A DNA stretch of 33,593 nt, taken from the NCBI GenBank assembly GCA_016234735.1, contig JACRAN010000127.1:1-33593 (forward strand), written 5' to 3'. Within the stretch, counting starts at the first letter, position 1, and every line of letters starts with the position of its first letter. Of this stretch, positions 1-20,224 are shown one piece after another. The DNA is from Bacteroidota bacterium (GTDB lineage: Bacteria; Bacteroidota; Bacteroidia; Chitinophagales; Saprospiraceae). The notes under the pieces are model-generated. The model made no database searches and was not told where the DNA came from. It saw nothing but the letters and a program-made list of their open reading frames with translations. A program made the position numbers and the translations under genes.

Positions 1-439
1 AAAGAGAGTCGCTCTCGAGCAAGGGCACGCACAACAATTTCAGGTGGGGGTAAATGCAGTAATAATCCTTGGAAAGACAAACCACAGTTGGCGGTTGCAG
101 GGGGTAGTTAATTTCCTTGCATATTTGTTGTATGAGCTTGCAAACGCCTATGTCGTCATAGTGGCATCGTGTCAAAGCGGCGAAACCAACGTTTTCCAAC
201 TCATCGAAAACCTTTACCACCAATTTGAACTCCTTCAGCCTGACTTCCTGTTTGTCATCTTGCTGATAATCAGAGTCGGTGAGCAAGAAATATAGCTGCT
301 CGATGTTCCTGTCCAACTCCTCGGAGCAGCCTCGTTCCAGGACTTGGAAATGAATGTCGGGGACATTGGGGGTTTTAGCTTTCAGCCGTTTTGCCCGCTC
401 GATAGTTTCTGTCAAGACCCCTTCAATAAATGGCAGCAT
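1..439 (-). CDS. Unknown protein, last visible gene of the Argonaute operon (3' end cut by window edge)
   Basis: The minus-strand frame is open for 146 codons from an ATG at 439-437 to the window edge, so the C-terminus is missing. The start lies 2 nt after the stop of the 125-residue gene, which indicates translational coupling within the same operon. The visible part begins MLPFIEGVLTETIERAKRLK and is soluble and mostly helical, with several cysteines (for example around ICKEINYPL and VVCLSKDYYC). No membrane segment or signal peptide is visible. I do not recognise the family. The cysteine/aromatic-rich stretch near the edge could precede a catalytic or metal-binding core lying outside the window, but that is a guess. 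Its position makes it a likely component or accessory of the Argonaute system. Confidence 0.7.
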   Translation of the reverse strand, partial: MLPFIEGVLTETIERAKRLKAKTPNVPDIHFQVLERGCSEELDRNIEQLYFLLTDSDYQQDDKQEVRLKEFKLVVKVFDELENVGFAALTRCHYDDIGVCKLIQQICKEINYPLQPPTVVCLSKDYYCIYPHLKLLCVPLLESDSL

Positions 440-441
440 GT

Positions 442-819
442 TCAACGTTTTTGAATTCTGGAAAAGGCGTAGTCACACTCCTGGTCGAGCGCATTGGTAA
501 TGAGCCGGAGGCTGTTGCTCGCTCGTTTATAGGAATTGTCCCTTCCTTCTAAGTACAGCAACAAGTTCTTCAAAACCGACTCGCTTTTGTCGCCTTCCCG
601 GTTCTCCAGGTACTCGTCAATAATCATAAAGACCATCTGTATTTGGTAGTCTTCCGATTTATTGTCCATAAGTTGCGCTACAAGCTGCTTCAATTCTTCC
701 CGCTGCTTGGGAGTTGAACCGTCTCTTTCCTGATTCAATTTGACAAGGTAATCGTTGAATTTTCTAAGGAATTTGCTCGACACCTTGTAGATGTTTGAAT
801 TTAAACCGATTTGACTCAT
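442..819 (-). CDS. Small helical hypothetical protein in the Argonaute operon
   Basis: This gene encodes 125 residues with no recognised domain. The sequence is highly charged and reads as alpha-helical throughout: SSKFLRKFNDYLVKLNQ near the N-terminus, then QREELKQLVAQLMD, QIQMVFMIIDEYLENRE and VLKNLLLYLEGRD. No signal peptide, membrane helix or cysteine cluster is present. It starts 15 nt after the stop of the Argonaute gene and ends 2 nt before the next start, so it is almost certainly co-transcribed. A small helical protein at this place could be a structural partner or adaptor of the Argonaute or of the downstream protein. This is inferred from position only; nothing in the sequence gives a function. 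Confidence 0.75.
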   Translation of the reverse strand: MSQIGLNSNIYKVSSKFLRKFNDYLVKLNQERDGSTPKQREELKQLVAQLMDNKSEDYQIQMVFMIIDEYLENREGDKSESVLKNLLLYLEGRDNSYKRASNSLRLITNALDQECDYAFSRIQKR

Positions 820-834
820 GATTCTAAGTTTTTT

Positions 835-3231
835 TCAGTTGTAGTATTCATCTTCGTCCGTTTCGAGTTGGTTAGCGTACTCTTTCTTGTCGTACTTGCT
901 AACCCTGTCTTTCAGATAAATGTCCAATAGTTTAATGGTCATGGGAATTCGTGAACACTCATTTGGCTTTGTGTACGCCAGAGAGGAAAGGTAAAAGATG
1001 TCTTGCAAACCATCGTTGAAAGACAAACTGCCTTTCACCATCCTCACACAAAGAGGGTTGGTTGTGCCGTCGTGCCTGAACTCTTTACCAGTTGTACAGA
1101 TAAAAGCAAGTCCTTGATTTGCAATCCAATAAGCACCTACTTCAGGGTTTTCGGTGAATCTTTTACCAGACCTTCTATCAATGAAATTGTCGAAAAGCCG
1201 GAGACTTACTTGAACCTTTTTCGGAAGCTCCAAAAGGGAAAACTGAGCATATAGCGGTAGGATGTCTTTGTTCTTCAATAATTGAAATGCTTCTTCAATT
1301 CCTTCAATTTCGGTATCAAAGAAGCGCCCATCTCGATGGAAAATAATGTTTTCTGGCAATTTATCCATCATCTTGACTTCAGCTTCAATCACTTCATACA
1401 GGATTTTGACCATCAACTCTTTGTCAATCCTCTCTTTTTTACTCGACCCTTTGAATTCCCTTCTAACGTTTTTCGCAAATTTGTCGAAGAAGGCAAAGCC
1501 TGCCACATATTCTTTGACATCAATTCCAATTGTCAAATCGGCGTACAATGGAGTCTTCAACACGTATGGACGCTTGTTATTGGAGAGAAGGACTTGTTTT
1601 AGTGAAACATGGGTCAAGTACCCATTCATCTTACCCTTCTTCTCTGGCTTCTGCAGATAAACAACCTTTCCGAGTTCGTCAACTCCCTCATAATAGCACT
1701 CCATTATAGTGTTTGTGTGAATAAAAGAGCAGCGTATTTTCTTGTTTTCTTCTAACTCTTGGATAATCAAGGCAGCCAATTCGTCGTGTTCTCTATTCCC
1801 TTTTCTGAAGTCAGGTATCATAACCAGGGCGTGAGGAGAAATGCCTTTGGAGCTCACACTACAAACGGCTTCCACAATGCGTTTTCCAAGTTTCACGTAG
1901 TTATTACTACCTGAGAATTTATCTTCATAAAAACACACTTCTGGGCTAAATTTGTCCCAAGGGTACATTGAGTTTACTTTCGCTTTGAGCCTCTCGCAGA
2001 ACTCTGAACCCATCGTGTCATGTACTGAGCGAGGCAGAAAAATATACTGAGGGCTAAATAGAGGCTCATCCGATTTGTAAAAGCCGCAGTTTCGGCTCGT
2101 CAGCATATCCATCCTTGCTTTTGCATACTGAAATGGGCAATCAAAATTTGAAGCGTAGAAGTCCATATCATTCCCAATAGTTAGGTCAGGAAAAGAGAGA
2201 GACCCACATTCAACCTTATGAAGATTGGGTTGTAGGACAATTTTTTGAGCGCCAAACATCAAGTACCTCAAAAATTCTTCTCTAAACCAATTTATCTCTC
2301 CTTCTCTGTTGTAGGGTGGAAGTATTGACTCTTTGTGCGTTTGACCGCCCTCTTCATCTTCGTTGCCAATTACTTCATAGCATAGCCCTGCTACAACCGC
2401 TCTCGTCTCATCGCTGGCGGTGTAGTAGCGCAAAACACTTCCATCCTCTGGCAAGTTTGCCAAATCTTTTGAGTGGGGGGCAAACGTTGCTTTTCGAACC
2501 TCATCAATCAGGACAACTTCATCCCCGGCATCATTTAAATAGCTATACTGGTTTGCTTTAAGGTCTTCAAATTCAGTCAATTTGACAACGTACCAATTAT
2601 CACCAAATCTATACAGGAAGTGCTTGCCTTTGTAGTAAGCGTAAAACTCCTCTGCTGTAATTCGAGGAGGTAAAGGTGTGGAATTGACAATTTTTTTGGT
2701 AACGTCCACCATAATTCCCCATTTAACTCCCAAGTCAACAGCCCTCACCCGGTAGCCGGTAAAGATATCTACTCCATTTATTCGTTTAGTTCGTTTTAGA
2801 AAAAAAGGTTGACCTGGTGTTGGTTGCCAGAGTCTATTGTTTTTGTACAGCGTTCCCTGTGTTTCAAAATTCAAAAACCTTTCACAAATAGCTCTTTCTG
2901 AAGGCTTAGTGCTATTGAAACTCAAAGGAAAAACTTCTTTTGTGTCATCAAAAAAGACTTTTCTGCCTCTGACAATAGGATATTCGACAGGGAGTTTAGC
3001 CCTGATTTCAGGGTCATTTTTTGTAACCAAAAACTGCTTTTCGTCCTTTTCGATAATCGTTATTGGGTGTTTAAGTTTCCTGCTCAACTTGTTAATCAAG
3101 TTTTGGCGGTTTTTCTGAAAATCACGGTTCCTGTTTGAAAGTCCTTGTATTTCATAAAGCCTATACTCACAGGACAGGTCTTGTAGATTTGAAACCAGAA
3201 AAATGTTGGATTGATAATTTTTAGTTGTCAT
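835..3231 (-). CDS. Long prokaryotic Argonaute (PIWI domain, DEDD tetrad apparently complete)
   Basis: Guide-directed nucleic-acid endonuclease of the prokaryotic Argonaute family. I chose the ATG at 3231, giving 798 residues and an 11-nt overlap with the upstream nuclease gene; the frame also allows a start at 3300. In the 798-residue numbering the C-terminal PIWI domain shows IGID (D571), a glutamate-finger candidate in KKERIDKE (E600), HRDGR (D634), and the terminal block CSRIPMTIKLLDIYL (D770). Together these match the DEDX catalytic tetrad in the DEDD version. A MID-like segment lies around residues 465-510 (HALVMIPDFRKGNREHDELA), preceded by N-terminal and PAZ-like regions, so the length and layout are those of a long pAgo. 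The gene is AT-rich compared with the housekeeping genes. It lies between a Cas4-like nuclease and two unknown genes, which points to defence against plasmids or phage. Cleavage activity and guide type cannot be read from sequence. Confidence 0.88.
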   Translation of the reverse strand: MTTKNYQSNIFLVSNLQDLSCEYRLYEIQGLSNRNRDFQKNRQNLINKLSRKLKHPITIIEKDEKQFLVTKNDPEIRAKLPVEYPIVRGRKVFFDDTKEVFPLSFNSTKPSERAICERFLNFETQGTLYKNNRLWQPTPGQPFFLKRTKRINGVDIFTGYRVRAVDLGVKWGIMVDVTKKIVNSTPLPPRITAEEFYAYYKGKHFLYRFGDNWYVVKLTEFEDLKANQYSYLNDAGDEVVLIDEVRKATFAPHSKDLANLPEDGSVLRYYTASDETRAVVAGLCYEVIGNEDEEGGQTHKESILPPYNREGEINWFREEFLRYLMFGAQKIVLQPNLHKVECGSLSFPDLTIGNDMDFYASNFDCPFQYAKARMDMLTSRNCGFYKSDEPLFSPQYIFLPRSVHDTMGSEFCERLKAKVNSMYPWDKFSPEVCFYEDKFSGSNNYVKLGKRIVEAVCSVSSKGISPHALVMIPDFRKGNREHDELAALIIQELEENKKIRCSFIHTNTIMECYYEGVDELGKVVYLQKPEKKGKMNGYLTHVSLKQVLLSNNKRPYVLKTPLYADLTIGIDVKEYVAGFAFFDKFAKNVRREFKGSSKKERIDKELMVKILYEVIEAEVKMMDKLPENIIFHRDGRFFDTEIEGIEEAFQLLKNKDILPLYAQFSLLELPKKVQVSLRLFDNFIDRRSGKRFTENPEVGAYWIANQGLAFICTTGKEFRHDGTTNPLCVRMVKGSLSFNDGLQDIFYLSSLAYTKPNECSRIPMTIKLLDIYLKDRVSKYDKKEYANQLETDEDEYYN

Positions 3232-4153
3232 TGCTACAAAGTTTTTGAAATGGGCAGTTAAGGCAGTCTTCTTCGTTGAACGTCGTATCAAAATTTTCAA
3301 TCTTTAAACTGTCGTAGTCTTGGTCTGCACCAGCTTTTTTCAGCTTGAAGATTTCGTCAGAAAGCCGCACTTTAGTATTTTCCAATAGAAGTGGGCTTAT
3401 CTCGTAATGCCGTGGTACGTTTTTAAGCAGTTGGTACTCCAATAACCTGAAATTGAGGATGTCATGGCTAACCAAATATTGGTTAAAAGTATCAAGATGC
3501 TTACATTCCTTCAAAGCATAGGCATAAAGAAGTAATTGGTCAATGTAGCTTCTATGCCCGGCAAAGTGAACTTTCCAGTCAATTATCAAAGGCGGTTCTT
3601 TCCTGAAAAATGCAACCAAATCAGGAACACATCTAACCGATGTATCATCATGTTTAAAATTGAGCGTGAGTTGGGATTTGATGAAGTTTGCAGATTTCAA
3701 AACACTCATTACTTCATGATTTTCAATCAAATTGGTGAGAGAAGTCTCAACATCACACCATGCCTTTTCCCAATCCGATTCGGACAAACCGCCTCCAAAT
3801 TCCAGTTCAATCAATGCTGCATAACGTTCTTCGTTTGCCGTTTTCTTGATAGAAAAATCTTTATACATCTTGGCTTCGGCAAACTTGCGTCGCTTATCAA
3901 AAATGTCTTTGGCAAATGCTAAAGCCTCTTTCAAATCAGCAGATTTCCTTTTGTTTAAGGACTCGACAACGTGTTTGCTTATTGTGTAATCAACCACTTG
4001 ACCACGAAAAGCATTTATCGTTTCAAGGTTTGACAGCATAATTACTTTCTGACGAAATGGGTCTTTGGTGTTCGTACACCAAACCTTCGACTCGTAGAAC
4101 CATTTCCGCTGGCAATGCCTGAAAATCTTAAAATTTGAGAATGAGTGTATCAT
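3221..4153 (-). CDS. Cas4/RecB-like PD-(D/E)XK nuclease with four-Cys iron-sulfur signature
   Basis: This 310-residue protein has the Cas4/AddB-like nuclease layout. An N-terminal FSNFKIFRHCQRKW block carries C14. The nuclease core has a PD pair (P177-D178), IIDWK (D192-x-K194) and YIDQLLLYAYAL (Q206, Y210). The C-terminus has CLNCPFQKLC with C297, C300 and C306. C14 plus these three would bind a 4Fe-4S cluster, as in Cas4. The motif FRGQVVD has Asp (D55) where the family often has a metal-binding His. The start codon overlaps the stop of the XRE gene by 4 nt (ATGA), and its own end overlaps the Argonaute start. RecB/Cas4-like nucleases are known from comparative genomics to accompany some pAgo genes. 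Its likely role is processing or degrading DNA ends or guides for the Argonaute, but that role is inferred. Confidence 0.85.
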   Translation of the reverse strand: MIHSFSNFKIFRHCQRKWFYESKVWCTNTKDPFRQKVIMLSNLETINAFRGQVVDYTISKHVVESLNKRKSADLKEALAFAKDIFDKRRKFAEAKMYKDFSIKKTANEERYAALIELEFGGGLSESDWEKAWCDVETSLTNLIENHEVMSVLKSANFIKSQLTLNFKHDDTSVRCVPDLVAFFRKEPPLIIDWKVHFAGHRSYIDQLLLYAYALKECKHLDTFNQYLVSHDILNFRLLEYQLLKNVPRHYEISPLLLENTKVRLSDEIFKLKKAGADQDYDSLKIENFDTTFNEEDCLNCPFQKLCSNDN

Positions 4154-4494
4154 TTCCTTCTTCTGTTTCTGATAAAATCAAGGTAATCCGATAGTTCGGT
4201 TTCTTCTTCCTCCGTCAGTTTGCCAAGCCTGTTCAATGGACTTGGGTGTTCTTTTTTTTGAACCGTCGCTACCGGTTTTTGAACAGGGTAGCCCACTTTT
4301 TCCATGAGGCTTTCATAAGGGATGCCGTACAGTTCTGCCAACTTGAACAAATTAGATGGAGATGGCTGCTTTATTTTCCCCGACTCTAACTGGCTCAGGT
4401 AAGCATTCGAGATGCCCGTAGTGGCTTCTGCTTCTCGCAAAGTAAGCCCTTTTTCTTGCCTGAGTGATTTGATATAAGCTCCGTAATCAAGCAT
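4150..4494 (-). CDS. XRE-family helix-turn-helix regulator, first gene of the Argonaute operon
   Basis: This 114-residue DNA-binding protein has a Cro/C1-type HTH at about residues 7-60. The pattern KSLRQEKGLTLREAEATTGI followed by NAYLSQLESGK is typical. The tail is charged (LGKLTEEEETELSDYLDFIR) and could mediate oligomerisation. It is the promoter-proximal gene and overlaps the nuclease gene by 4 nt. It probably autoregulates the operon: two similar sites 32 nt apart lie across its promoter (see 4503-4557). A regulator of this type in front of a nuclease pair suggests that expression is kept low until derepressed. Confidence 0.9.
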   Translation of the reverse strand: MLDYGAYIKSLRQEKGLTLREAEATTGISNAYLSQLESGKIKQPSPSNLFKLAELYGIPYESLMEKVGYPVQKPVATVQKKEHPSPLNRLGKLTEEEETELSDYLDFIRNRRRK

Positions 4495-4502
4495 TTTTTA
4501 AA

Positions 4503-4557
4503 CGGTGTTGCTAAAAATTTTGAGCAAAGGTAAATCGGTTTGCTAAATTTGTCAAGC
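4503..4557. promoter_or_regulatory. Two candidate XRE operator sites over the operon promoter
   Basis: Two related sequences share the plus-strand pattern CGGT(g)TTGCTAAA-N6-(A/G)AGC, at 4503-4525 and 4536-4557. Their GCTAAA cores start 32 nt apart, about three helical turns. The first abuts the -7 box and leader; the second covers the -33/-7 spacer. The core of the first (4510-4525) is a near palindrome. The arrangement fits autorepression by the adjacent XRE protein; no binding data are available. Confidence 0.5.
4525..4555 (-). promoter_or_regulatory. Promoter of the Argonaute operon (TTG-N20-TACCTTTG)
   Basis: Read on the minus strand, TTG (4555-4553) is followed by 20 nt and then TACCTTTG (4532-4525). 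This matches the Bacteroidota -33/-7 consensus TTG-N19/20-TAnnTTTG. It lies about 30 nt upstream of the XRE start at 4494, which gives a short leader. Confidence 0.75.
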
Positions 4558-4698: not shown

Positions 4699-6963
4699 AT
4701 GACAACAATAAAATCCACCGTCAATCGCCGCTCCTTCCTCAAAAACACCGTCCTCGCCAGCGGCGGCATCGTCCTCGGCATCAACTGGCTGACGGGCTGC
4801 AAAAATGCCTCCGGCGAAACGGCGCTCGCCATGCCAAAGGAGTGGTTCAACTTCAACGCCTACCTGAAAATCGGGGAGAACGGCGTCGTCACCATCTTTT
4901 CGCCCAACCCGGAATTCGGGCAAAACGTGATGACCTCCATGCCCATGATAGTGGCAGAGGAACTCGACGTGGACTGGAAAAAAGTCCTTGTGGAGCAGGC
5001 CCCGCACGACCCCGTCAGTTACCCGCCCGCAGCGTTCGGGCAGTTCACCGGGGGCAGCCGGGGCATCATGTCCAAGTGGGAGCCGCTGCGCAATGCGGGC
5101 GCTGCAGCCCGGCACATGCTGCGGCAAGCTGCGGCGGATGCGTGGAAAGTGCCCGTTGACGAAGTCACCACTGCCGAAGGCGTTTTGAAGCATGAAAAAA
5201 GCGGCAAGTCAGCGGGCTACGGCGAGATGGCGGCGGCTGCCGCCAAACTGCCCGTGCCGGAGAAGCCGGCCTTGAAGGAAATCAAGGATTTCAAGCTGAT
5301 TGGCAAGTCGCAGAAAAACGTGAAAGGGCTGAAAATCGTGACCGGTGAGCCGCTGTTCGGCGTGGACTTCAAGGTGGACGGGATGCTCATCGCCATGATT
5401 GCCCAGCCGCCCGCATTCGGCATGAAGCTGAAATCGGTGGACGACTCCGCTGCCCGTGCTATGCCGGGCATCAAGGACGTTTTCACCATAAAAGCTTACA
5501 ACGACGGCTTTGAAAAAAACATGTTCGACACCAACGCCTTCCCAGAACTCGTCGCCGTCGTCGGCAACTCCACTTGGGAGGTGATGCAGGCGAAAAAGGC
5601 GTTGAAAATCGAGTGGGAACCATTTGCCGCCTTCTCGGAGACGGTCGCCGGGTTTGGCGGCAAGCAGGTCGTGAACGTTCCCGCCGGACTGGAAAACAGC
5701 ACCGACCACCACGCCAAAATGGAGGCTTTGGCAGCCAAGCCCGGCAAGGTCGTCCGCCGGAACGGCGACCCGGAGGCGGCGTTCAAGCGGGCGGCGAAGG
5801 TCATCGAGCGGAGCTACGCCTGCCCGCACCTCGCCCACAACTGCATGGAGCCGATGAACTTCTTCGCCGACGTGAAGGGCGACAAGGTGAAGGTGGCGGG
5901 TCCGCTGCAGGCCCCCGGCATCATCGAAACGACGCTGGCAGCCCGCATGGGCATCCCCATCGAGAACATCGAAATCGAGTTCACCCGCATGGGCGGCGGA
6001 TTTGGGCGGCGTGCCTACTCGCACTATATGGTCGAGGCGGCGCTCATTTCCCAAAAAGTAAATGCCCCCGTCAAACTCATGTACAGCCGGGAGGACGACA
6101 TGAGCAACGGCATTTACCGCCCCGCCTACCACGCCACCTATCGGGCGGCTTTGGATGAAAACAACCAACTGCTCGCCTTCCATGTGAAAGCTGGCGGCAT
6201 CCCGGAAAGCCCGCTCCACGCCGACCGTTTCCCCGCAGGGGCGATTGACAACTACCTCGCCGAGGATTGGCAGCTTGACTCGAACATCACCATCGGGGCC
6301 TTCCGTGCACCGAGGTCGAACTTCATCGCTGGGGCGGAGCAGTCCTTCCTCGACGAACTGGCGGAGGCGATGGGCAAAGACCCCATCGAGTTTCGTTTGG
6401 AATTATTGAAACGGGCGAAGGAAAAACCCGTCGGCGAAAAGAACGACTACGACCCTGCCCGCTACGCCGGGGTTTTGGAACTGGTTCGTGAAAAATCGAA
6501 CTGGGCAAACCCGCCTGCTGGCGTCAGCCGTGGCGTCGCCGCCTATTTCTGCCACGCCAGCTATGCGGCGCACGTGCTGGATTTGACGATGGAAAACGGC
6601 AAGCCCGTCGTGCAAAAAGTGACGAGCGCCATTGACTGCGGCATCGTCGTGAACCCCGACGCCGCCGCCAACATGACCGAGGGCGCCGTGACGGACGGCA
6701 TCGGCAATGCGCTCTACGGCGAGATGACCTTCAAGGCGGGCGCAGCGGAAAAGACCAATTTCGACAAGTACCGCATGATTCGCATGAGCGAGGCGCCGAA
6801 GGCGATTGACGTGCATTTTGTGAAAAACGAGATTGCCCCGACGGGCATGGGCGAGCCGCCCTTCCCGCCCATCTTCGGGGCGCTGGCGAATGCGCTGTAC
6901 AAGGCGACGGGGAGGAGGGTTTATCGGCAGCCGTTTTTGGGGGAGAAGCAGATGCTGGGGTGA
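4699..6963 (+). CDS. iorB: Molybdenum hydroxylase large subunit, isoquinoline 1-oxidoreductase beta type (Tat-exported)
   Basis: This 754-residue protein belongs to the xanthine dehydrogenase/aldehyde oxidase molybdopterin-binding family, IorB subgroup. I chose the ATG at 4699 because the N-terminus then begins with a Tat signal: RRSFLK at residues 10-15 and a hydrophobic stretch ending in WLTGC (C34), a possible lipobox. The frame stays open upstream to 4540, but that extension has no family character. Family motifs include TRMGGGFGRRAYSHY near residue 432, for cofactor contact, and C-terminal GEPPFPP near residue 719 carrying the expected catalytic Glu. The enzyme would oxidise an N-heterocycle or aldehyde in the periplasm using Mo-cytosine dinucleotide and pass electrons to a 2Fe-2S partner (IorA), which is not in this window. 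It is GC-rich, unlike the preceding operon, and divergent from it. A truncated copy of its 3' end lies at 8302-8427. Confidence 0.88.
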   Translation: MTTIKSTVNRRSFLKNTVLASGGIVLGINWLTGCKNASGETALAMPKEWFNFNAYLKIGENGVVTIFSPNPEFGQNVMTSMPMIVAEELDVDWKKVLVEQAPHDPVSYPPAAFGQFTGGSRGIMSKWEPLRNAGAAARHMLRQAAADAWKVPVDEVTTAEGVLKHEKSGKSAGYGEMAAAAAKLPVPEKPALKEIKDFKLIGKSQKNVKGLKIVTGEPLFGVDFKVDGMLIAMIAQPPAFGMKLKSVDDSAARAMPGIKDVFTIKAYNDGFEKNMFDTNAFPELVAVVGNSTWEVMQAKKALKIEWEPFAAFSETVAGFGGKQVVNVPAGLENSTDHHAKMEALAAKPGKVVRRNGDPEAAFKRAAKVIERSYACPHLAHNCMEPMNFFADVKGDKVKVAGPLQAPGIIETTLAARMGIPIENIEIEFTRMGGGFGRRAYSHYMVEAALISQKVNAPVKLMYSREDDMSNGIYRPAYHATYRAALDENNQLLAFHVKAGGIPESPLHADRFPAGAIDNYLAEDWQLDSNITIGAFRAPRSNFIAGAEQSFLDELAEAMGKDPIEFRLELLKRAKEKPVGEKNDYDPARYAGVLELVREKSNWANPPAGVSRGVAAYFCHASYAAHVLDLTMENGKPVVQKVTSAIDCGIVVNPDAAANMTEGAVTDGIGNALYGEMTFKAGAAEKTNFDKYRMIRMSEAPKAIDVHFVKNEIAPTGMGEPPFPPIFGALANALYKATGRRVYRQPFLGEKQMLG

Positions 6964-7186: not shown

Positions 7187-8194
7187 ATGAATAACACCTC
7201 GCAAATAATCATTTACCAAACCGAAACCGGAGAAACCAAATTAGAGGTGCGGCTGGAGAACGAAACCGTTTGGCTCACCCAAAAATTGATGGCGGAGCTG
7301 TTTCAAACAAGCGTACCGAACATCAACATGCACCTCAAAAACATTTTTGAGGAGGGGGAATTGGACCCCAAGGCAACTATTCAGGATTTCTTAATAGTTC
7401 GATTGGAAGGCAACCGGGAGGTGGGGCGCAGTATCGAATACTACAACTTGGACGCCATCATCTCCGTCGGCTACCGCATCAAATCTGCCGTCGCCACCCG
7501 CTTCCGCCAATGGGCCACCCAGCATATCAAGGAATACATCATCAAAGGTTTTGTGATGGACGATGAGCGCCTGAAAAACCCGGACCTCCCTTTCGATTAT
7601 TTTGAAGAACTGCTCAGGCGCATTCAGGACATCCGAACCTCTGAAAGGCGTTTTTACCAAAAAATCACCGACATCTACGCCACCAGCACCGATTACGACC
7701 CGACGTTGGAAACCAGCATCCTGTTTTTCCAGACTGTACAGAACAAAATGCATTGGGCGATTACCGGCAAAACTGCCGCCGAAATCGTGGCAGAGCGGGC
7801 CGACAGCAACCAACCAAACATGGGACTGACCAATTGGCGGGGCGCAAAACCCAGAAAACAGGATGTCGGAATCGCCAAAAATTACCTCTCCGAACCCGAG
7901 CTCGCCGCCCTCAACAACCTCGTGGAGCAGTACCTCGTTTTTGCCGAAGGCCAAGCCATGCGCCGCATTCCCATGTACATGAAGGACTGGATTGAAAAAC
8001 TCAACGGGTTCCTGACTTTGAACGACCGCAATATCCTGGACCATGCCGGAAAAATTTCGCACCTGTTTGCCCTCGAACATGCAGGAAAGGAGTACGAAAA
8101 ATTTCAGGTCATGCAGGACAAACTGCTGGAATCCGACTTCGACAATGCCGTGAAAAAAGCCATCGCTGCCAAAAAGCCAAAATCAAAATCATGA
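7187..8194 (+). CDS. RhuM family protein
   Basis: This 335-residue protein matches the RhuM family (named for a Salmonella pathogenicity-island gene and common near type I restriction loci and mobile regions). Recognisable blocks are VWLTQKLMAELFQTSVPNIN near residue 28, the SIEYYNLDAIISVGYRIKS block near residue 85, FRQWATQHIKEYIIKGF, and the C-terminal DRNILDHAGKISHLFALEHA. The length is normal for the family. The biochemical role is not established; the N-terminal block looks like a DNA-binding helix pair. A -7-like TACCTTTC at 7063-7070 lies upstream. Its stop overlaps an ATG by 4 nt (8191-8194) that opens a decayed reading frame. The gene sits between iorB and a truncated duplicate of iorB, so it is an insertion. 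Confidence 0.88.
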   Translation: MNNTSQIIIYQTETGETKLEVRLENETVWLTQKLMAELFQTSVPNINMHLKNIFEEGELDPKATIQDFLIVRLEGNREVGRSIEYYNLDAIISVGYRIKSAVATRFRQWATQHIKEYIIKGFVMDDERLKNPDLPFDYFEELLRRIQDIRTSERRFYQKITDIYATSTDYDPTLETSILFFQTVQNKMHWAITGKTAAEIVAERADSNQPNMGLTNWRGAKPRKQDVGIAKNYLSEPELAALNNLVEQYLVFAEGQAMRRIPMYMKDWIEKLNGFLTLNDRNILDHAGKISHLFALEHAGKEYEKFQVMQDKLLESDFDNAVKKAIAAKKPKSKS

Positions 8195-15900: not shown

Positions 15901-18171
15901 GTTGGTCGCTTCAACGACGTAGCTGCCGTTGGCAGCGGCAGTCGCAGCAGGGATGAGCGGGCTGGCCGCCTGCGAGGCGAAACCGCCCGGCCCCGACCAC
16001 GAATAGCTGAGGCCAACGCCGTCGGAAATGGCCATGAGTTGCAGGTTTTGCGGGGAACAATCGGTGGCCTGGTCGTAGTCATGGTCGGCGGAAATCGCAG
16101 GTTGTGGGTTGAGCGAGATGGTCGTGAAGGCCGGAAGGAGCGACGTGCAACCGTCCTGCGTGACCATCAGTTGGAAGGTTTGCGGAGCGAGGACGTTGCT
16201 CACCGCCGGGTTGGGCTGCATAGAAAAAACGGTGGTATCGCCTTGTTTTTTCCACTCGTACACGGCACCGGGGAGTGGGTTGCCGAGCAGTTGCGCCTGC
16301 CCGCCGGGGCACACGGCACCGGTGTTTTCGGCGAACGCCTGAGGGCGGGGCTTGATGCTGACGGCCAGCGGTGCGCTCGTGGCCGTGCAGCCGTTCGGGT
16401 CGGTGATTTGCACCTGCCAGTTGCCGGAGAGGTAGGCCGGATGTGCCGGTTCGATGAACGTTTCGCCCCCCGTCGTCGTGAGGCCGGGCAGTGCGAGCGT
16501 GGCGGCGCTGAAACCCAGCGGGCTGTGCCACTCGAATTTTTGCCCGGTGGCTGCCGTGTAAATCCGCAGTTTTTCCCCAAAACAAACCGGCCCGTTGCTC
16601 AAAATATCGGGCACGGCAGGCAGGGCGTGTACTTCTAAATTGGCTGAGGCCGTTGCCGGGTCGCAACCGGCAGCGTTGACCGTGAGTGTGTAATTGCCTG
16701 ATTGATAATTGTTTACGTTGAAAATAACGGGGTCTGGGATGGTGGCATTGAAGCCCTGCGGCCCCGACCAGGCAAAACTGGCGTTGGCGGGCAGCGGGTT
16801 GGGCGACATGATTTTGAACGGAACCTCGCTGCCCTCGCAGGCCGCTGTCGGCACCTCGATTTGGAGGTCGATGGCGGTGGCGGGCGTGAGTTCGAGAGGC
16901 TGGTCGGCAGCTTCGGTCACGGGGCAGCCGTACTTCGTGCCCCGCACCACCGGCCCGAAAATGCCTGCGGGCAAGCCGCCGAAGTAGCTGTCGGGCGACC
17001 AGTTTTGCCCGCCGTCGATGCTGTATTCGAGCGAATTGGCTCCGTGTGCGAAGATGCGCAACATGCCGTTCGCCCCGCCGAGGCAGGCGACGGGGTTGGC
17101 CGATTGGATGCTGTCGATTTTCAAAATCCCGTCGGTGAACAGGCAATTCATGCACGGGGCTGCGGCGCTGCTGCCTGCGCAGACCGGCACTGCCGCCGGG
17201 TTTCCGGTAAATTTCACTACCGAACCGATGCCCGCACCCTGCGCGTTGGGCGGCAGGAACGGGTCGTCGTTTTTCACCAAAAAAATGGAGTCGCCCTGGC
17301 AACTGCCGCCGTTGGCAAATTGGAGCAGCGGGATTTTTGCGCCGGGCTGGAGGGTGAGGCCCTGCCCGCTGGCGTTCATGCGGAACTGGATGTAGTCAGC
17401 GTTTTCATCCTCCGGCGGACCGTCGTTTCGGGAGACATTGCCGAAGGAAAACGTGCCGGGCAGCAGGTTGGTCAGGTCGTGGATTTGGAAAAATCCGGTC
17501 GGGACTTTGACGGCCACCTGCAACATTTCAACGGTGGAGGTCGGCTGAAATGCGCCGTCGGGGTGCAGGGATATTTGGTAAAAATTATCGGGCAGCAATT
17601 CCAACTCAAAGGTTATCAGGCAGTTAGAAAGCCGGAAGCAGTCGGCGGAACCGGCGTCGTAGTTGCCGAGGTAGGCATCGATGGGTGCTGTGCCGATGGA
17701 AAATTCGTTGCCAGCGGGGATGTTCAGCGAGTTGGGCGGCAGGAACGGGTCGGTGACGGGGTGCATGATTTCGAGCGCTCCCGTGCAGCCGTTTTTGTTC
17801 TCCAACGAAAAAAGCGGCACCTCCTGTCCGGCCAAAAACGTGATGGCATCCGTGGGAGCGGTGAGGTTGAAAATGGCGTAGTCCACGCCGGGATTTTCGA
17901 TGGGGTGCTGGACGAGTTGGGTGAGTTGCCACTGCCCGGCGTGATTTTGCAGGCTGTCCACCTCGAAGCTGCCTGTCGGCACCACGACCGTGACCTGTGC
18001 GCTGTGGGCGAAGTTGTCGAACGGCGGCAAAACATCGGCCTGCGAGCGGGCAAAAACGGTGTAGGTGCCTGTGCCCGGCTGGAGTTGGATTTTCAACTCG
18101 ATTTGGGCGGACAGGTGGTTGGCCGCCGCGCTGAGGAGGAAAAGTGTCAGTAAGTTTAGGAGGTTTTTCAT
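12958..18171 (-). CDS. Giant multi-Ig/PKD-like secreted protein with gliding-motility C-terminal domain
   Basis: This is a 1737-residue surface or secreted protein. A signal peptide occupies residues 1-22 (MKNLLNLLTLFLLSAAANHL then SAQ). Two related N-terminal modules follow, each with VPTGxF and an N-G-xC block. Then come many Ig-like repeats of roughly 80-90 residues with recurring CxG, a YxWxGPxGF pattern, a GxY(T/R)L strand and GC ends. Near the C-terminus there is a cadherin-like segment (NDTLLNINLLDNDS, VTYIPYPNAFGEDGFSYRIC). The C-terminus (NLITPDGDGLDETFTVPC ... LTVFNRWGAVVFES ... GTYFYHLTLNDG) is the CHU_C/type B sorting domain for type IX secretion. The PorP/SprF gene follows directly. 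It is likely an adhesin or matrix protein; the ligand is unknown. Confidence 0.9.
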   Translation of the reverse strand: MKNLLNLLTLFLLSAAANHLSAQIELKIQLQPGTGTYTVFARSQADVLPPFDNFAHSAQVTVVVPTGSFEVDSLQNHAGQWQLTQLVQHPIENPGVDYAIFNLTAPTDAITFLAGQEVPLFSLENKNGCTGALEIMHPVTDPFLPPNSLNIPAGNEFSIGTAPIDAYLGNYDAGSADCFRLSNCLITFELELLPDNFYQISLHPDGAFQPTSTVEMLQVAVKVPTGFFQIHDLTNLLPGTFSFGNVSRNDGPPEDENADYIQFRMNASGQGLTLQPGAKIPLLQFANGGSCQGDSIFLVKNDDPFLPPNAQGAGIGSVVKFTGNPAAVPVCAGSSAAAPCMNCLFTDGILKIDSIQSANPVACLGGANGMLRIFAHGANSLEYSIDGGQNWSPDSYFGGLPAGIFGPVVRGTKYGCPVTEAADQPLELTPATAIDLQIEVPTAACEGSEVPFKIMSPNPLPANASFAWSGPQGFNATIPDPVIFNVNNYQSGNYTLTVNAAGCDPATASANLEVHALPAVPDILSNGPVCFGEKLRIYTAATGQKFEWHSPLGFSAATLALPGLTTTGGETFIEPAHPAYLSGNWQVQITDPNGCTATSAPLAVSIKPRPQAFAENTGAVCPGGQAQLLGNPLPGAVYEWKKQGDTTVFSMQPNPAVSNVLAPQTFQLMVTQDGCTSLLPAFTTISLNPQPAISADHDYDQATDCSPQNLQLMAISDGVGLSYSWSGPGGFASQAASPLIPAATAAANGSYVVEATNPFGCTTSQVEVVTEVVDPLPVPQVQSTGPACPGEAVQLSVQAYTGSQVSYQWFKNNLPMGGQVSNLLNFSAIQTSNEGNYRVRVQVDGCTVESVSLPLDVLDNPQAVPDFSLSQPCEGGTLQFFANLSGITSWHWSGPGGFASDSPNPLIYNVKFDEIGAYTLTVTGSNGCSATASLIVDGILPVPDAPLVTSNSPVCPEDSIVLTVQNPALLGSVQYVWMNGASEYIGTGQATLTLAVGDPQAVPPFLVQTIVNTCPSDLSNPVTVETLPPPVALAWSGGPVCEGETAQLFAATVPNGSYQWRIAGQSQVVSIEQNPLLPLSDSTDFQLVVQSNGCATEATASVSVPVNPAPVIADIAGGGAFCEGSSVSLSASNAVPLANPVQFTWTGPGGFTFSGTAVPTGPFPLGFSAVSPQNEGAYTLTLQSAEGCTSAPQSVAVEVGEMPQPPVLAVADAVLCPGETLQLDATPTTGSSVAYHWFFNDGTTDFPLAVTSYPTYFLPSVTSSNSGSYFVKTVTDGCEPPASNLVPVTVLGAPQNLLATNPTTSLTPACEGSVVPLEATLLPGADYHWYGPAGFFSDLPNPLLDGVEVLQAGSYLVVIGLPQCSVTWVASTDVFVQPAPATPVLTGTSEACEGTDVTISVTNAEAGAAYDFYFGQNIQPFSSGGGASVILENVGSANSGGYFASASLNGCESAVSSSFLLEIIPVQTGIAFAGDDRTVCEENEIVPLQATPPAVGSGLWTSLDGATVVQPDLAHSTSLGLLPGPNRFVWTLTNGICPGAGSDTAVVFLEKIGAAGDYFSVSPNDTLLNINLLDNDSTQFAPAWDFAILKRPRNGQLLDDSGSGTVTYIPYPNAFGEDGFSYRICSMTCPDVCAEASVRIDLSGSTDPADCFLPNLITPDGDGLDETFTVPCAATWPGSRLTVFNRWGAVVFESKNYENDWGGTYHGEPLPTGTYFYHLTLNDGKRTLLQGFVVVDW

Positions 18172-18643
18172 CGAAAACAGTGTGCCGTTGAATAGCTGTG
18201 CGTTCCGACATGGCCAATGAAACTGCCTGCCAATGGAAAACGGTCAGCTATGAAGTGTGAGTTGTTTTGAGAAAGTGATTTGAATTTAAAATGCTGAAAA
18301 TCATCCCGAATGCTATCGGGGCAGAATCTCACTTTCTCACCGTCTCACTTCTAAAAAGGGTGGGCTTGTCCGACAAAGTTTTGCTGAAGTTGTTGCGTAT
18401 CGGTTTTTGGGGCTGTTCGGGTACGGAAAGCAAACCTTCCGCAAACGAGTCAGTTTGGCTTTTACTAACTCTTTAAGTAGTTGACTATGTTGTAATTGGA
18501 AGGATATGGGGCATGTGCCCACGGGATGATTCTACTTGCCGGAACTGCAACAAACATGCCGGGCAGGGTGGGGGTTGAATTTTTTTTTTAATTTGTTGAA
18601 GAGAATGCATTGTGGTCGGGGCACGTTGAAGTCAGCGGCATTC
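18172..18643. other. Intergenic stretch between the amidase 3' end and the adhesin 5' end
   Basis: This 472-nt stretch has no convincing gene; the short open frames on both strands lack family character. It holds a small inverted repeat (cccga/tcggg) at 18305-18320 and three copies of an 8-nt unit (TCTCACTT, TCTCACCG, TCTCACTT) at 18327-18350. I found no clear TAnnTTTG box for the adhesin. Confidence 0.6.

Positions 18644-20224
<1,581 letters not shown>

Follow-up and report, generated by a model that had tools for sequence, protein, structure and literature searches.

Five genes at the start of the window, which is the whole 33,593-nucleotide stretch analyzed here and a complete contig (C36) in a 359-contig genome, almost certainly form a fixed system. 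They encode an XRE-type HTH regulator, a Cas4-like nuclease, a long prokaryotic Argonaute (pAgo), a small helical protein (gene 4) and an HExxH protein (gene 5). The first three are already known as the operon of a group of DNA-guided, RNA-cleaving (D-R) pAgos, so just the downstream genes 4 and 5, a pair of predicted operators, and variants of the locus lacking Argonaute are new. The explanation that best accounts for the whole is a horizontally transferred, autoregulated, inducible immune operon with a peptidase-released repressor, a reading that we place at about an even chance. Genes 4 and 5 and the operator pair offer concrete, testable parts of the D-R pAgo system, and in vivo tests with the pAgo alone, or with the pAgo and the nuclease, would have missed part of it.

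The operon, its second contig and its insertion site

All five genes lie on the minus strand, as listed here from the regulator onward.

4150..4494, minus strand: XRE-type HTH regulator, 114 aa (PF01381, E=2.3e-15; PADLOC capH, E=6e-10, residues 5-110)
3221..4153, minus strand: Cas4-like PD-(D/E)XK nuclease with four Cys, 310 aa (PADLOC Aga_Cas4-like_Nuc, E=7.9e-93; conserved D178, D192, K194, C14, C297, C300, C306)
835..3231, minus strand: long pAgo of the PliAgo (D-R) group, 798 aa, D571/E600/D634/D770 (PADLOC pAgo_II, E=7e-241; PDB 7r8k, E=1.6e-106; tree support 99/100)
442..819, minus strand: gene 4, predicted 125-aa all-helical protein with the N terminus MSxxGL (same position in nearly all loci; AlphaFold2 pLDDT 91.3; M1/S2 in 39/40)
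1..439, minus strand: 5' part of gene 5, HExxH zinc-peptidase-like (profile E=2.9e-43; 3' part on contig C239)

The tight packing described in a sequence-only reading of this DNA is exact. The HTH and Cas4-like genes overlap by 4 nt (4150-4153), the Cas4-like stop at 3221 and the pAgo ATG at 3231 give an overlap of 11 nt, 15 nt separate the pAgo from gene 4, and a gap of 2 nt lies between the end of the gene 4 stop (442) and the gene 5 ATG (439). The fifth gene is real, and its start and junction had been read correctly, but it is incomplete in the window, where the contig begins at base 1. Its remainder was found with the gene 5 profile in the same genome, at C239:23322-22607 on the minus strand (E=8.4e-54). 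The final 18 bases of C239 are identical to window positions 1-18 (AAAGAGAGTCGCTCTCGA), and the reading frame carries through to ...LLESDSLLHLPDLYHELGHPLL...WSIEFFCDIYAT..., with HELGH ... EFFCD in the window's own gene. The inferred join of the two contigs rests on overlap, frame and homology rather than on reads. The shared 18-nt end includes an inverted repeat, which is a plausible cause of the assembly break at gene 5.

The AT-rich composition of these genes beside GC-rich ones had been taken as the mark of a transferred cassette, and both the composition and the transfer are borne out. Most of the cassette has a GC content of 38-44%, and the adjoining genes stand at about 57-62%. It is flanked by two oxidoreductase genes, one for a 2Fe-2S subunit on C239 and one for a large subunit from about window position 4699. 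Three genomes of the same genus (sister species) have the empty site: there the two genes are adjacent, with matching ends about 100-190 bp apart. On the joined contigs of the window genome, about 6.7 kb separates these ends, which is the length of the insertion, and the interval contains a Fic-family gene together with the pAgo operon. With empty sites in three genomes and the lower GC, insertion of the cassette is confirmed on the joined contigs, and by this sequence comparison the pAgo operon was horizontally acquired.

The co-inserted Fic/DUF4172 gene (L059 11305-12549, on C239) sits with the operon between the oxidoreductase subunits, and the three same-genus genomes have just weak Fic matches. 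Further along the window, at 7187-8194, a 335-aa ORF resembles, by eye, a RhuM-family protein.

A D-R Argonaute operon and its two downstream genes

The tetrad D571, E600, D634 and D770 picked out from the letters of the window is exact in the 798-aa pAgo counted from position 3231, and the D/E/D/D set is conserved 42/42. The label of long pAgo stands and can be narrowed to a PliAgo-group D-R pAgo: in a 41-row tree, the window protein falls inside the PliAgo/RslAgo group with the support given above. The closest solved structure is PDB 7r8k, a record titled just "Argonaute." On sequence grounds we identify it as PliAgo; its residues and numbering (the tetrad, K565, K759, H498 and Y530) fit those in the PliAgo report (PMC9360449). 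K573 and K767 of the window pAgo correspond to PliAgo K565 and K759. The MID residues H498 and Y530 are described there as invariant in the PliAgo group (PMC9360449), and the window pAgo has H and Y at these positions by alignment to 7r8k. It has Asp at the R467 position and Thr at the S501 position. PliAgo and RslAgo are reported to cleave RNA with DNA guides at a shifted cut site (Lisitskaya et al. 2022, PMC9360449), and by its sequence the window pAgo is very probably a DNA-guided RNA-cutting enzyme as well.

Genes for a Cas4-like PD-(D/E)XK nuclease and an HTH regulator are described as accompanying the PliAgo group (PMC9360449). The window matches these operons in its clade, DEDD tetrad and group-specific lysines, and in having the Cas4-like and HTH genes in front. 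The nuclease, described from the sequence as a PD-(D/E)XK protein with four Cys, does have D178, D192-W193-K194, C14, C297, C300 and C306, and 38-39 of 39 relatives keep its active-site residues and four Cys. What the nuclease does in D-R pAgo operons is only guessed at in the original report (PMC9360449).

The suggestion that the complete set had not been characterized holds in part. The HTH, Cas4-like and pAgo trio has been published with biochemistry and structures (PMC9360449). The text and figure legend of that paper name the regulator, nuclease and pAgo only, and say nothing of genes 4 and 5, of the operator pair or of variants lacking Argonaute. The RslAgo locus (L009, Runella slithyformis) has all five genes. 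A search of the open-licence literature turned up no report that ties a protease or HExxH protein to prokaryotic Argonautes, and two pAgo surveys mention neither proteases nor peptidases. A 2018 survey, which has neither term, could define operon composition for no pAgo group other than MID-OH (PMC6299218).

Relatives were gathered via the pAgo alone, and their neighbors were then tested with a profile of each gene. A genome scan with the single window pAgo sequence gave no matches, and a scan with an alignment succeeded. The doubt raised at the outset, that the two unassigned genes and the Cas4-like gene might not co-occur with this pAgo branch, came out for co-occurrence: gene 5 lies downstream and adjacent in 31/31 distinct pAgo-ascertained clade loci, a count made with gene 4 and gene 5 profiles first built from some of the same loci and with genomes mostly sampled from one phylum. 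Four distant pAgo loci without genes 4 and 5 (L040-L043) were left out of the clade, and weak gene 5-like matches in L057, L058 and L068 were excluded from the gene 5 counts. Gene 4 is recognized between the pAgo and gene 5 in nearly all of the pAgo-ascertained loci. In the most diverged ones, an ORF of similar length that is not recognized as gene 4 occupies its position. The Cas4-like gene is found wherever the contig extends far enough.

Searching by gene 5 added 10 further loci with the Cas4-like gene, pAgo and gene 5, plus three without Argonaute, and the gene order is identical in 40 other loci. The pAgo is present in 20 of the 23 genomes with a strong gene 5 match. As a reciprocal test, the gene 5 matches among 72,556 plasmids are exactly the five records of this pAgo clade; the viral contigs and phage records searched hold no gene 5 relatives. 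The hosts span six phyla (Bacteroidota, Balneolota, Pseudomonadota, Gemmatimonadota, Cyanobacteriota and Chloroflexota). The gene 5 and pAgo trees agree in their main groups, namely an HTH group, a sigma-factor group and a deep third group. The co-occurrence, the plasmid test and the agreeing trees indicate that the set is a system and not a chance neighborhood.

It is very improbable that genes 4 and 5 are mere fellow travelers in a defense island and stand outside the system. Other defense genes do cluster at some loci, such as the E1-like and multiubiquitin genes by L009, L013 and L069, but these island neighbors vary while genes 4 and 5 stay. The 31/31 adjacency with constant strand and order, the touching genes, the congruent trees and the active-site residues invariant across several phyla all argue against such a casual association.

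The deep third branch includes L056 (3805-9000) and L099 (3640-8771), which have an HTH gene, a Cas4-like gene, a divergent pAgo, an ORF of about 149 aa and gene 5. One of these two genomes belongs to the window's own genus.

The H, E and H of the HExxH motif in gene 5 and a downstream Glu are invariant in 34/34 rows. The Glu lies about 60-70 residues past HExxH, mostly as E-x-x-C-D, and three Trp are also invariant across the 34 rows. In the AlphaFold2 model of a gene 5 relative (pLDDT 94.5), a three-strand stretch precedes the helix that carries HExxH, and the Glu sits in a helix further on. A helix-borne HExxH followed by a Glu in a later helix is the order expected of gluzincins. Searches of Pfam, NCBIfam, PADLOC and PDB gave no family match to gene 5 above threshold. 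Pfam M48 (PF01435) has weak matches in two divergent relatives (L056 and L068; E=0.011 and 0.025), and its gathering score is not reached by gene 5 or its relatives. Foldseek with the model found no significant structure match, and the peptidases listed were selecase 4qhi (E about 5) and M1 peptidase 6koz (E about 1). Minigluzincins and M48 peptidases have HExxH and a helix-borne downstream Glu in common with gene 5, and selecase is among the weak fold matches. However, gene 5 stays under every family threshold, has about 150 mostly helical residues before the active site and, unlike them, carries C-terminal helices unmatched in the PDB search. The motif makes it highly likely that gene 5 is a metallopeptidase, a label to be taken as a strong motif-based call and not as a family assignment.

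Gene 4 is predicted to consist of five helices (AlphaFold2), and its best-conserved part is the MSxxGL start. A Foldseek search with it gave nothing beyond generic helical bundles. A weak match of gene 4 to Csm2 (E=0.004) was rejected as chance helical similarity not common to other members, and an isolated DndD match, likewise unshared, was set aside as a chance likeness of helical proteins. The Pfam matches of window genes 4 and 5 (NRN1, YtzH, DegQ and others) are all under cut-off and unshared.

Operators, regulators and the predicted action of gene 5

Two predicted operators lie upstream of the HTH gene.

4542..4557, no strand: operator 1, GCTAAATTTGTCAAGC, minus strand GCTTGACAAATTTAGC (GCTW-N8-WAGC motif; contains a TTGACA -35-like box)
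4510..4525, no strand: operator 2, an imperfect copy reading GCTCAAAATTTTTAGC on the minus strand (spaced 32 bp from operator 1; differs from the motif at one position)

Upstream of HTH genes, the GCTW-N8-WAGC palindrome has 30 sites spread over 23 loci, where first-order Markov reshuffles predict 0.7. Loci with two matching copies space them by 32 bp, except for two rhizobial loci with 18 bp. The TTGACA-containing element is near-identical in Bacteroidota and Rhizobiales, and so the predicted operator appears to travel with the cassette. The number and placement of these sites make it likely that the HTH protein, which matches capH across its length, autoregulates at them.

Ahead of the nuclease, the sister group carries a sigma-70 gene and another, HTH-like protein (SIG2) in place of the HTH gene. 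The PnyAgo group, which is of this sigma-70 type, has the Cas4-like, pAgo, gene 4 and gene 5 core in common with the window. It differs in using the sigma-70 and HTH-like proteins as regulators and in its lack of the palindrome, with 0 GCTW-N8-WAGC sites before 15 sigma-type operons. The hhalign probability between the HTH protein and SIG2 is 14% in direct comparison and 82% once two Anaerolineae intermediates are added, and SIG2 may contain an XRE-like domain.

In the preferred explanation, the HTH protein would bind the two predicted operators and hold the operon nearly off. On an invasion cue, probably single-stranded DNA or another DNA-damage signal, the gene 5 peptidase would cut or remove the repressor, by analogy with CapP/CapH and PprI/IrrE-DdrO. 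Gene 4 might be a partner, adaptor or brake of gene 5, and the model assigns it no specific role. With the repressor removed, the operon would be expressed. The Cas4-like nuclease could then help make short DNA guides or attack invader DNA, and the pAgo with DNA guides would cut invader transcripts.

Release of the repressor by gene 5 is argued by analogy and seems to us a little short of an even bet. CapP/CapH in CBASS and PprI/DdrO in Deinococcus are repressor-cutting metallopeptidase pairs (PMC10904395). The CapH/CapP, PprI(IrrE)/DdrO and ImmR/ImmA systems likewise have an XRE-type repressor and a zinc peptidase in one operon with inducible logic. Gene 5 differs from CapP and IrrE in its own mostly helical architecture and its small partner protein, and it has no CapP/ImmA (M78)-family match in Pfam, PADLOC or NCBIfam. 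With no detectable sequence relation to CapP or IrrE, the CapP analogy is functional only. An M48-like peptidase sits in another repressor-controlled defense island, RptR-RM-DarTG-M48 (PMC12255303). There the repressor comes first and the M48-like metallopeptidase last, as here, but the effectors are others and no pAgo is included.

At L011 and L039, two cyanobacterial loci whose upstream sequence is visible, genes 4 and 5 are kept with no adjacent HTH or sigma gene. This suggests a further target of gene 5 apart from the HTH protein and favors a direct role of gene 5 with gene 4 or the pAgo over repressor release. Also counting against the preferred explanation are the three loci that have genes 4 and 5 but no pAgo or Cas4-like gene, and the lack of a significant Foldseek match for gene 5. 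Genes 4 and 5 might, for example, be a second effector, in which target-bound pAgo would activate gene 5, otherwise held by gene 4, so that cellular proteins are cut and growth stops in a Craspase-like manner. Such a role would suit genes that always directly follow the pAgo, vary less than the regulator and have a tree in common with the pAgo, and the MSxxGL start of gene 4 could serve as an inhibitory peptide or as a substrate. On the other side, this pAgo has its full catalytic set, unlike pAgos that depend on separate effectors, and gene 4-5 modules also occur without pAgo. We consider a second effector unlikely.

Genes 4 and 5 at loci without Argonaute

Three loci (L069, L091 and L092) have sigma-70, SIG2, gene 4 and gene 5 without a pAgo or Cas4-like nuclease. 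The L069 locus (G392, 16577-19834) runs sigma, SIG2, a 136-aa ORF, gene 4 and gene 5; the ORF shows a GIY...YVG pattern by eye (GIY-YIG-like) and has no Pfam match. At L091 (5964-8919) and L092 (5925-8822), caspase-domain and hydrolase-like genes are convergent behind gene 5, and the caspase-domain protein of L091 matches PF00656 (E=1.2e-7).

These arrangements suggest that genes 4 and 5 together are a module separable from the rest. They also bear on a reading in which gene 5 would be a protease serving the maturation or turnover of the complex, and would switch it on or off by processing the pAgo, the Cas4-like nuclease or the gene 4 protein. Gene 4 adjoins gene 5 even where the pAgo and Cas4-like genes are missing, so gene 4 would most likely be the constant substrate or partner. 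RslAgo and PliAgo, purified from E. coli as single proteins, are described as active in vitro (PMC9360449), which indicates that pAgo cleavage requires no processing. A maturation protease is accordingly given a low probability.

Two different Bacteroidota genomes hold remote gene 5-like HExxH peptidases (L058 4324-6733 and L068 5270-7392), which come after a small protein and precede a dCTP deaminase-like gene. Neither the deaminases nor the peptidases of these loci matched PADLOC.

A broader proposal, tentative and on balance doubtful, is that genes 4 and 5 would be an effector-independent sensing or control module coupled to varied effectors. The effectors would mostly be a pAgo and Cas4-like nuclease, with a GIY-YIG-like protein at one locus, possibly caspase-domain proteins at two, and dCTP deaminases at two loci of remote relatives. 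If true, bacterial immunity would have in this pair a new and widespread switch based on a protease, and gene 5 would be, within the literature searched, the first protease linked with a prokaryotic Argonaute.

A trio of multiubiquitin-domain, ThiF E1-like and DUF6527 genes adjoins three gene 4-5 operons (L009 12235-14414, L013 3134-5547 and L069 14430-16432). Its sides and strands vary from locus to locus, and it may represent defense-island clustering.
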